Source of the DNA: Planctomycetaceae bacterium
GTDB lineage: Bacteria > Planctomycetota > Planctomycetia > Isosphaerales > Isosphaeraceae
Assembly (NCBI GenBank): GCA_019232645.1
Contig: JAFANO010000607.1
Location: forward strand, 1 to 16,732
Direction of reading: 5' to 3'
Length of the DNA: 16,732 nucleotides
Shown: in pieces, positions 9,755 through 13,733 of the stretch
Position numbering within the stretch: the stretch's first letter is position 1
Layout of the letters: each line of letters begins with the position of its first letter
Program-made: the position numbers and the translations under genes
The notes under the pieces: model-generated
What the model was told of the DNA's origin: nothing
What the model saw: only the letters and a program-made list of their open reading frames with translations
The model's database searches: none

Positions 9755-9881
9755 CCCGCCGAGCGAGGCGACGTGGTGCGAGGCCACGCGCCGCGCCGGG
9801 TATTGAAAAAAAACTCAGGGTCAACCTCACCGGGCGGCGCCGCCGGCCCCGGCAGTGGATGATTGACGACGGAGTTTCGCG

Positions 9882-10514
9882 ATGCGCGTCGGACTGCTCG
9901 GCCGTAAAGTCGGCATGACCCAGATCTTCGAGGCCGACGGCACCGCCGTCCCGATCACGGTCCTGGAATGCGGCCCGTGCACCGTGCTCCAGGTCCGGAC
10001 GGAGGAGCGCGACGGCTATCACGCGCTGCAGCTCGGTTTCGCCGATAAGAAGCGGAAGAGCGCGACCCAGGCCGAGCGCGGACACGCCCGCCGGGTCGAC
10101 GCCGAGCCGAAGCGCTACGTCCGCGAGATCCGCCAGGACGGCCCGAGCGACGTGGCCGAGGGCCAGACCCTCACGGTCGAGGTCTTCGGCGCGATCCCGC
10201 GCGTCGACGTCATCGGCACGAGCAAGGGGCGGGGCTACTCGGGCGTCGTCAAGCGGCACGGCTTCAAGGGCCTCCGGGCATCGCACGGCGTCAAGCGGAT
10301 GCACCGCCACCCCGGCTCCTCCGGCCCCAGCGCCGACCCGGCCCACACCCGCAAGGGGATCCGCAAGCCCGGCCAGTACGGCAATGCCCGGATCACCGCG
10401 CGGAACCTCAAAGTCGTCCGGGTCGACCCGACCAACAATCTGCTCCTGGTCCGGGGCGCCGTCCCCGGCCCCAACGGCGGGTTCCTCACGGTCCGCCAGA
10501 CGAACAAGGTTTGA
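9882..10514 (+). CDS. rplC: 50S ribosomal protein L3
   Basis: The 210-residue product has the L3 start MRVGLLGRKVGMTQIF, the HGFKGLRASHG segment, and the conserved extension KPGQYGNARITARNLKVVR followed by LLVRGAVPGPNGGFLTVR. L3 is an early 23S assembly protein whose extension reaches toward the peptidyl-transferase centre. The length is normal. GACGGAG lies upstream of the ATG at 9882. Gaps are unusually wide on both sides: 259 bp to rpsJ and 369 bp to rplD, the latter filled by an AT-rich repeat island. Confidence 0.97.
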   Translation: MRVGLLGRKVGMTQIFEADGTAVPITVLECGPCTVLQVRTEERDGYHALQLGFADKKRKSATQAERGHARRVDAEPKRYVREIRQDGPSDVAEGQTLTVEVFGAIPRVDVIGTSKGRGYSGVVKRHGFKGLRASHGVKRMHRHPGSSGPSADPAHTRKGIRKPGQYGNARITARNLKVVRVDPTNNLLLVRGAVPGPNGGFLTVRQTNKV

Positions 10515-10883
10515 TACGTGTCCCGATGATTTTGTGTACTCTGTCTGGATGTCGGATTCGGGATTCCGAATTCTGGATGTAGGATTCGAGATTCCGAATT
10601 CCGGATCTCGAATCCGAGATCAGATTCTGAATTCCAGATTCCGAATTCCGGATCTCGAATCAGAATCTCGAATCCGAAAATCGAGATCTCGAATCCGGGA
10701 TCTCGAATCCGACATGAGACACCGAGTTCCGGATCTCGAATCCGAAAATCGAGATCTCGAATCCGGAATCTCGAATCCGAGATTTCCAATGGCCATCCCT
10801 CAGACCGGGTATACGAAATCCCTGGAACCCGTCAGAGAGAATCACCCGAGCTCGAGGCAGAATCCCCGCGGAATGGAACCGGG
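10515..10883. other. rplC-rplD intergenic region with repeat island
   Basis: This 369-bp gap breaks the normally tight rplC-rplD pair. Most of it (10552-10787) is the CTCGAATC repeat island; the last ~95 bp before rplD return to ordinary composition. No gene is supported. Confidence 0.75.
10552..10787. repeat. Dense CTCGAATC/GATTCGAG repeat island inside the S10 operon
   Basis: The word CTCGAATC occurs eight times (10607, 10654, 10667, 10688, 10702, 10735, 10756 and 10770), plus one GATTCGAG at 10583 in the other orientation. A 48-bp unit is duplicated with one mismatch (10665-10712 and 10733-10780, offset 68). The units are palindromic: TCGAGATCTCGA at 10681-10692 and 10749-10760, and GATCTCG-AATC-CGAGATC at 10604-10621. 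Spacing is irregular, so this is not a CRISPR array. It is much AT-richer than the genes on either side. Confidence 0.95.
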
Positions 10884-11720
10884 ATGGATGGGAACATGTT
10901 GACCGTGCCCGTATACAACCCCGCCGGCGAGAAGGTGGGGGAGGAATCGATCGACCCCGCCGACTTCGGCGGCGGGGTCAACAAGCAGCTCCTGCACGAC
11001 GTCGTGCTGATGCACCTGGCCAACCGCCGCGTGGGCACGGTCAACACGCGGGGCCGCGCCGACGTCGCCGGGTCGGGCAAGAAGCTGTTCCGCCAGAAGG
11101 GGACGGGCAACGCCCGCGCCGGCGCCAAGCGGACCAACAAGCGCAAGGGCGGCGGCGTGGCCTTTGCCCGCCGCAACCGCGACTACAGCTATGCGATCCC
11201 CAAGCGAGCCGTCCGCGCCGCGATCCGGATGGCGCTGCTGTCCAAGTTCCAGGACGGCCAGGCGCTGGTCATCGACGGCTTGAACCTCTCGGAGCCCAAG
11301 ACCAAGGTGGTCGCGCAGGCGCTCCGGGCGATCCGGAGGCCCGACCTGACTGAGGACGAGGCGACCGTCGCCGTCGGCGAGACCAAGGCGCAGGCCCTCA
11401 GCCGGACACTCGACCACCGCTCGATCCTGATCGGCCTGCCGGCGCACGACCCCACCTTCTACCGCAGCGCGCGGAACATCGAGGGGGTCCAGGTCGCACA
11501 CGTGGCCGACTTCAACACCTACGACATCCTCAAGCAGCGCTACCTGCTGCTGACCCGCGAGGCACTGGCGGTCCTCAAGCAGCGGGTCAAGGAGAAGGTG
11601 GGCCGCCGTCCGGCGCCGGGGGCCACCCCGGCCGAGGGCCAGGCCGAGAGCGCCACAACCACAACCTCAACCGACGCCGACGTCGAAGCCGTCGCCGCGC
11701 CGGCCGACCCGGAGGGCTGA
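10884..11720 (+). CDS. rplD: 50S ribosomal protein L4 with C-terminal extension
   Basis: The 278-residue product shows the L4 core: VPVYNPAGEKVGEESIDP, LHDVVLMHLANRRVGTVNT, the basic loop GSGKKLFRQKGTGNARAG, and RNIEGVQVAHVADFNTYDIL near the usual C-terminus. L4 lines the exit tunnel and in enterobacteria represses its own operon. Usual length is about 205; here about 60 extra residues follow (GRRPAPGATPAEG, then a TTTTSTDADVEA tail), Ala/Thr/acid-rich and probably disordered. The ATG at 10896 (MLTVPVYN) fits the family N-terminus slightly better than 10884, and neither has a strong Shine-Dalgarno. rplW follows after 10 bp, so the two are probably coupled. Confidence 0.95.
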   Translation: MDGNMLTVPVYNPAGEKVGEESIDPADFGGGVNKQLLHDVVLMHLANRRVGTVNTRGRADVAGSGKKLFRQKGTGNARAGAKRTNKRKGGGVAFARRNRDYSYAIPKRAVRAAIRMALLSKFQDGQALVIDGLNLSEPKTKVVAQALRAIRRPDLTEDEATVAVGETKAQALSRTLDHRSILIGLPAHDPTFYRSARNIEGVQVAHVADFNTYDILKQRYLLLTREALAVLKQRVKEKVGRRPAPGATPAEGQAESATTTTSTDADVEAVAAPADPEG

Positions 11721-13450: not shown

Positions 13451-13488
13451 TGGGTCCCAGGGACCCCGTGCGACCGGTCCGAGGATGG

Positions 13489-13533
13489 GAAATTTGAGAT
13501 TCGAGATTCCCAATTATTCCCAATTCGAGAGAG
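13489..13533. repeat. GATTCGAG-family island after rpsS
   Basis: The island contains GAGATTCGAGATTCCCAATT and then CCCAATTCGAGAG. GATTCGAG is at 13498-13505. It shares the core word with the islands at 2.7 kb and 10.6 kb and the CCCAATTATT word with the partner island at 13640. Confidence 0.8.
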
Positions 13534-13639: not shown

Positions 13640-13680
13640 AATTATTTTCGAATCTCGAATTCGAACTCTCGAATTTGGAA
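13640..13680. repeat. GATTCGAG-family island before rplV, inverted partner
   Basis: The island begins CCAATTATTTTCGAATCTCG and continues AATTCGAACTCTCGAATTTGG. It carries CTCGAATT twice, the opposite orientation to the 13489 island, which suggests an element with inverted ends or inverted copies. Confidence 0.75.
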
Positions 13681-13733
13681 GTCCAGGCAGGGCGCCCCAA
13701 CGATAACGATCTGGAGCGCGGATCAGGCAGGCG

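Follow-up and report, generated by a model that had tools for sequence, protein, structure and literature searches.

The cyanobacterial STRR heptamer repeats are intergenic and multicopy with a period of 7 bp, and consist of direct tandem heptamers that are not known to have terminal inverted repeats; REP sequences, for their part, are not known to come with a target duplication. The nearest precedent for the family presented here is BrickBuilt, of Porphyromonas gingivalis, a MITE, or short non-autonomous DNA transposon, described in PMC4596501 as non-coding, strictly intergenic and able to form long predicted stem-loops: it has 19 copies, IS5-like ends of 12 bp, duplications of variable length, and an internal 23-bp direct repeat that expands and contracts between strains. 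The RUP element of Streptococcus pneumoniae, as described in PMC2229807, is 107 bp long, has 108 copies, and is a MITE for which mobilisation in trans by an insertion sequence, IS630, into TA targets has been proposed. The account of the IS1031 group of the IS5 family in PMC12016507 presents autonomous elements with a transposase, a TNA target, a 3-bp direct repeat, TGA as one of the sites used, and a member whose ends read GAACCTGTC... Finally, PMC3733652 describes GTAG and CGTC REP sequences, 20-40 bp long and linked to RAYT, that lie downstream of genes and between convergent genes; the ends of the GTAG sequences often supply a TAG stop codon.

The window analysed here is the whole stretch of 16,732 nucleotides, and the subject is an island of short repeats between rplC and rplD in it. 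We hold, with a probability of about 0.86, that this island is a MITE copy which carries a 7-bp satellite inside and has expanded and partly decayed. The features of the locus are the following:

9882..10514, plus strand: rplC, ribosomal protein L3 (TIGR03625, 254.8 bits; ORF list), with its stop codon TGA at 10512-10514
10512..10514, plus strand: TGA, the TNA flank on the left of the element, which coincides with the stop codon of rplC (family boundary between TNA and TACG, 51 copies)
10515..10550, plus strand: left terminal inverted repeat (TACGTGTCCCGATGATTTTGTGTACTCTGTCTGGAT), left-end profile score 21.3
10544..10783, no strand: 7-bp-periodic, strand-alternating (palindromic) heptad array (lag-7 identity; 28-nt repeat family)
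10665..10712, plus strand: 48-bp unit, first copy (sequence reading; repeat family D2)
10681..10692, no strand: perfect palindrome TCGAGATCTCGA
10733..10780, plus strand: 48-bp unit, second copy, with one mismatch (sequence reading; repeat family D2)
10749..10760, no strand: perfect palindrome TCGAGATCTCGA
10800..10832, plus strand: right terminal inverted repeat (TCAGACCGGGTATACGAAATCCCTGGAACCCGT), scoring 31.8 with the right-end profile, which matches 10799-10834
10833..10837, plus strand: decayed right junction, CAGAG in place of the A-TNA-G of the family (sequence)
10884..11720, plus strand: rplD, ribosomal protein L4 (TIGR03953, 176.9 bits)

The identity of the two neighbours as the genes of ribosomal proteins L3 and L4, proposed in a first-pass annotation of this DNA, is confirmed by TIGR03625 and TIGR03953. 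The best named relatives of rplC belong to Singulisphaera (Singulisphaera acidiphila, 89%) and other Isosphaeraceae, which bears out the family that the annotation had guessed. The conserved start of rplD is probably the ATG at 10896, since the alignment of 25 of 29 relatives begins no earlier than residue 4-6.

The same annotation had delimited an AT-rich block at 10552-10787. The block itself is real, with 47.5% G+C versus 66.9% across the fetched stretches of the genome, but these coordinates are too narrow and miss the terminal inverted repeats: as these bound the array on the outside, the element extends over approximately 10512-10836. The repeats reported within the block are there too. 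Exactly eight CTCGAATC words are found on the plus strand of the window, all within 10607-10777; perfect palindromes stand at 10681 and 10749; and the 48-bp unit is duplicated with a single mismatch, the repeat analysis giving 93% identity over 56 nt. The reverse word GATTCGAG occurs once inside the island (10583) and at three sites elsewhere in the window. The self-identity of the island at lag 7 is 0.53, versus 0.25 in Markov-resampled sequence (0/1000): the basic unit is thus 7 bp long, not 8. A 28-nt repeat family recurs in the island at spacings of 14, 21, 26, 34 and 47, and the palindromes are a consequence of heptad units that alternate in strand. Two further pairs of heptad islands exist in the window, both inverted, 2686-2725 with 2892-2930 and 13487-13530 with 13640-13685; their members are 110-170 bp apart and are without the ends of the MITE family, and the stretch 13640-13685 is weakly periodic (246/20,000 shuffles).

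In the genome to which the window belongs (an assembly of 3.86 Mb in 777 contigs, 81% complete), about 100 or more dispersed copies form one family with common asymmetric terminal inverted repeats (TACGSATTCC...). Coding and intergenic sequence together, the word CTCGAATC has 241 matches, versus 6 for the word read backwards. Several arrays among 40 stretches chosen around this word end in a common non-heptad sequence, which is also present just outside the block as it was first delimited. A query containing the common end sequence has 42 matches in the genome; the end pattern, with at most three mismatches, has 196, versus 0 for the reversed pattern, two matches being expected for each intact copy. 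The covariance model R1, built from 18 copies whose alignment displays the terminal inverted repeats, has at least 140 matches among the 150 candidates scored out of 1377, and at least 12 of the 140 are opposite-strand duplicates of listed copies. By its own terms, the first-pass annotation would have been refuted by a word no more frequent in intergenic DNA than composition predicts, or by an island without copies elsewhere. Neither is the case: copies of the island are numerous, and the word, counted over coding and intergenic DNA together, is in great excess.

A standard copy has 100 bp between two TNA triplets and contains four heptads; the aligned unit, counted with both triplets and one further base, comes to 107. 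This length is found in 26 of the 51 copies that have both ends in the fetched stretches, and the mean identity among these 26 is about 83%. Judged from length alone, the copies have no coding capacity. L226:2469-2552 is a short element, of about 84 bp, whose ends match and whose interior has no heptads, and a different inverted-repeat element (GTACGCGTTCACGG...) adjoins a truncated copy of the family at L228:1-135.

The family duplicates a 3-bp TNA target directly, as does the IS1031 group of IS5. A TNA triplet is present on both sides of 35 of the 50 scorable copies, and is missing on one or both sides of the other 15. The middle bases of the two triplets agree in 26 of the 35 copies, where 14.4 are expected (0/100,000 permutations); they differ in the nine others, and are complementary in only two of these. 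The preferred context is C-TNA-G, the base before the triplet being C in 30 of 42 cases and the base after it G in 23 of 39. Five pairs of copies are directly adjacent: in L155, L156, L180 and L200 one complete TNA is common to both copies, the first base of the next copy being changed or lost in L155 and L180, and in L177 the junction reads TCC. Compared by description only, the family departs from BrickBuilt by its alternating 7-bp unit, its ends of about 36 bp and its constant 3-bp TNA; from RUP, by TNA in place of TA; and from the IS1031-group member cited above, by ends in TACGSATTCC and by the lack of a transposase of its own. Titles and abstracts, with subscription journals and preprints largely outside the search, returned no description of the family. 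It joins BrickBuilt as a further type of MITE with a satellite inside.

The clean TNA target duplication points to a transposase group that can be tested. IS5-family transposases are present in the genome, where NF033580 is above cut-off in four of the eight proteins tested. Among the 21 DDE_Tnp_1 loci of this 81% complete assembly, none is an autonomous element with the ends of the family. Only one of the 21, L211, has a strong end, and that end belongs to a separate MITE copy; at L206, where an IS5-family transposase has, on one reading, TCA as its flank at either side, the end is at chance level, with a score of 10.3 versus a control maximum of 13.3. Five stretches with unpaired ends, inspected for facing ends only, revealed no autonomous partner. 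A second IS5-type element, with ends TAGGAGTTACGCAGTTGG, was noticed at L204:933-2111; what appear by eye to be small derivatives of it lie between CTCAA and TTGAA inside the heptads of L069 and L105.

The positions of the copies relative to genes were examined with a custom gene caller based on codon usage, for which 151 long ORFs served as the training set. Between predicted genes, 14 of the 51 copies are in convergent spacers, 23 in co-directional ones and one in a divergent spacer, a neighbour being missing for 13; the corresponding numbers for 80 non-coding CTSAG control sites are 6, 34, 6 and 34. The ratio of convergent to divergent spacers is thus 14:1 for the copies versus 6:6 for the control (Fisher p = 0.024). 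For the copies that have at least 150 bp on both sides, which drops 6 of the 51, coding sequence of one strand reaches both edges in 0 of 45 cases versus 64 of 186 for CTSAG controls (p ~1e-7): insertions inside genes are not seen. A stop codon coincides exactly with the TNA of 13 of the 51 copies, and with 14 of the 80 non-coding CTSAG controls (p = 0.28). The coincidence is thus attributable to target choice, not to a special preference for stop codons. More generally, the position of the copies outside genes and at gene ends would follow from the TNA target, combined with the elimination of copies that disrupted a gene or a promoter.

The copy between rplC and rplD is assigned to the family on its end profiles, whose scores of 21.3 and 31.8 compare with control maxima of 6.2 (left) and 4.6 (right) in 523 kb of reversed sequence of the same genome, and not on R1: among the 150 of 1377 candidates scored, the match list of this model does not contain it, presumably because its interior, at about 240 bp versus four heptads in a standard copy, is too long. 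Its flanks are TGA on the left and CAG on the right, so that the decayed right junction has no recognisable target duplication; bases seem to have been lost there. It is natural to conjecture that an IS5-family, IS1031-like DDE transposase, working in trans, inserted a copy at the TGA that ends rplC, and that the target duplication kept a stop codon at the end of the gene. The interior would then have grown to about 240 bp, by replication slippage or by recombination between self-complementary heptads, and the right junction would have decayed. A foreign element of about 325 bp can be accommodated between rplC and rplD, a tolerated insertion being the simplest account, and any effects on the rplC-rplD transcript would be side effects of this probably near-neutral event.

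A difference in the number of heptads can be observed at one locus. Contigs C325 and C282 (L091 and L099) overlap with 3 substitutions in 367 aligned bases, and differ by 35 bp inside the element, that is, five heptads. This suggests a change of unit number in the population, reminiscent of the expansions and contractions of the BrickBuilt repeat between strains, with an assembly artefact as the other possibility. Expansion by heptads only was rejected as a general rule: 5 of the 25 longer copies have an excess length divisible by seven, which is not clearly above chance.

The comparison of the rplC-rplD gap in relatives, which the first-pass annotation had proposed, bears on the question of function. 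The gene rplD was found in 58 of the 59 genomes searched, the window's own included, and 29 relatives of the same family, none of them of the same genus, were compared at this locus. The element is in none of the 29. Measured to the first rplD residue that aligns, their spacers are between 12 and 372 bp long, and they vary too much in length and sequence to display an empty site. The family-end profiles have no score above 8.7 in these 29 loci, versus 21.3 and 31.8 for the copy in the window, and no score above 12.3 in 109 partly redundant rplC/rplD loci. The spacers of G029 and G004 (L010 and L018) hold, by eye, other palindromic repeats, CACAAAGG... and CAGTTGCC...; the rplC-rplD junction thus seems to tolerate repeats repeatedly.

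Could the island be a cis-acting RNA element, such as an attenuator, a processing site or a 3'-end stabiliser, whose hairpin tunes rplC against rplD? The repeated hairpins announced for the operon transcript are indeed predicted, with a fold of -162.1 kcal/mol for the spacer (z -4.64 versus shuffles), and the preference of the copies for convergent over divergent spacers is one that REP sequences share (as described in PMC3733652). However, a strong fold is what is expected of any palindromic array, the element is absent from the spacer of all 29 relatives, and the family copies in co-directional spacers are found in both orientations (13 and 10). In the alignment of the family, the covariation term is 0.01 and both sides have changed in only 4 of 30 pairs. 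A scan of 9800-11200 against Rfam gives 19 weak matches (E up to 1), none of them at its gathering score; terminator-like sites are on the minus strand only, 2 versus 1.0 expected; and a sigma-70-type promoter-like site was looked for without success. We consider this explanation very unlikely: a side effect on the mRNA is possible, a dedicated regulatory function is unsupported. Of the four options first put forward for the island, the attenuator, the processing site and the protein-binding array find no support, unlike the miniature palindromic element, which has the ends, the TNA duplication and the dispersed copies on its side. Looking for copies elsewhere is, in general, a sensible precaution before a predicted hairpin in an essential operon is called an attenuator.

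Two other origins for the repeats deserve to be weighed against a MITE. A palindrome of REP/BIME type, moved by a RAYT (a Y1 tyrosine transposase), would be extragenic and located at gene ends, as these copies are, and the genome does have five Y1_Tnp matches. Yet HUH/Y1 transposition would not be expected to leave a direct 3-bp target duplication such as that of this family; a unit measures about 100 bp and has long inverted repeats, instead of 20-40 bp; and the ends of the family are absent from all five Y1_Tnp loci, where the highest score is 6.0. These observations leave the REP/BIME explanation with hardly any credibility. The same can be said of a free-standing 7-bp satellite, arisen locally as in cyanobacterial STRR, for which the ends would be incidental. 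Satellites derived from heptamers are known in bacteria (reported in PMC6749651), and among 40 loci of the genome chosen by CTCGAATC alone, only 5 of 11 lag-7 islands have family ends nearby; the 6 others have none, one of them, L051, not being of the ATTCG type, and the two further island pairs of the window also speak for such a process. But both ends of the copy in the window are right in place and orientation, and far above control, and standard copies have these same ends with only four heptads. The free satellite is thus contradicted for the rplC-rplD island, while the end-less islands may fit it. The MITE reading, in turn, offers a concrete origin for some of the 7-bp-periodic intergenic islands of this genome: the interiors of such elements.

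Outside this genome, the family appears scarce. R1 has matches in at least 3 of 98 other genomes, no more than 39 candidates being scored in each: those in G006 are strong, and those in G024 and G092 are weak and come through the heptads. One contig of G006, C92, is 93.5% identical over 294 bp to a stretch of the window's genome that includes a copy; as the rplD genes of the two genomes are only 74% identical, this contig may be stray. The ends have 16 matches in 44 genomes of the host family, versus 10 for the control, which amounts to background apart from G006 and G024, and the exact end pattern has no match in 84,980 species genomes or viral contigs, a collection that possibly does not include the window's genome. 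The MITE family appears to have spread within one lineage.

An element that shares the outer end TGA-TACGCATTCCGGATC with the family has 12 matches in G024, whose genus is a different one. Its interior, GATGCAT-GATGTCC-GATGGTC-GATGAGG, differs and is also of period 7: in a stretch picked by eye, its lag-7 identity is 0.56 (9/20,000 shuffles). Since the copies share their ancestry, this periodicity counts as one observation. The element has one weak match among the other 44 genomes of the family, the window's own included. This sister element raises the idea that a period of 7 bp belongs to the architecture of a whole class of Isosphaeraceae MITEs and did not arise by local chance, and that sister families in this class would keep the ends and the period and replace the heptads, ATTCGAG/CTCAAAT in one case and GATGNNN in the other, because the period serves transposition. 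We regard this generalisation as tentative, and on balance unlikely. If it were true, the period might give the transposase repeats to bind, favour the formation of hairpins or provide built-in YTNAR target sites, and many unexplained 7-bp-periodic intergenic islands of planctomycetes would be the remains of such MITEs.

Heptad islands as such reach far beyond the MITE family, as 87 of 99 genomes, the window's own among them, contain the word GATTCGAGATT. One example, without family ends that could be seen by eye, is a long heptad island of G024 (L161, contig C106), which begins right after an apparent gene end.
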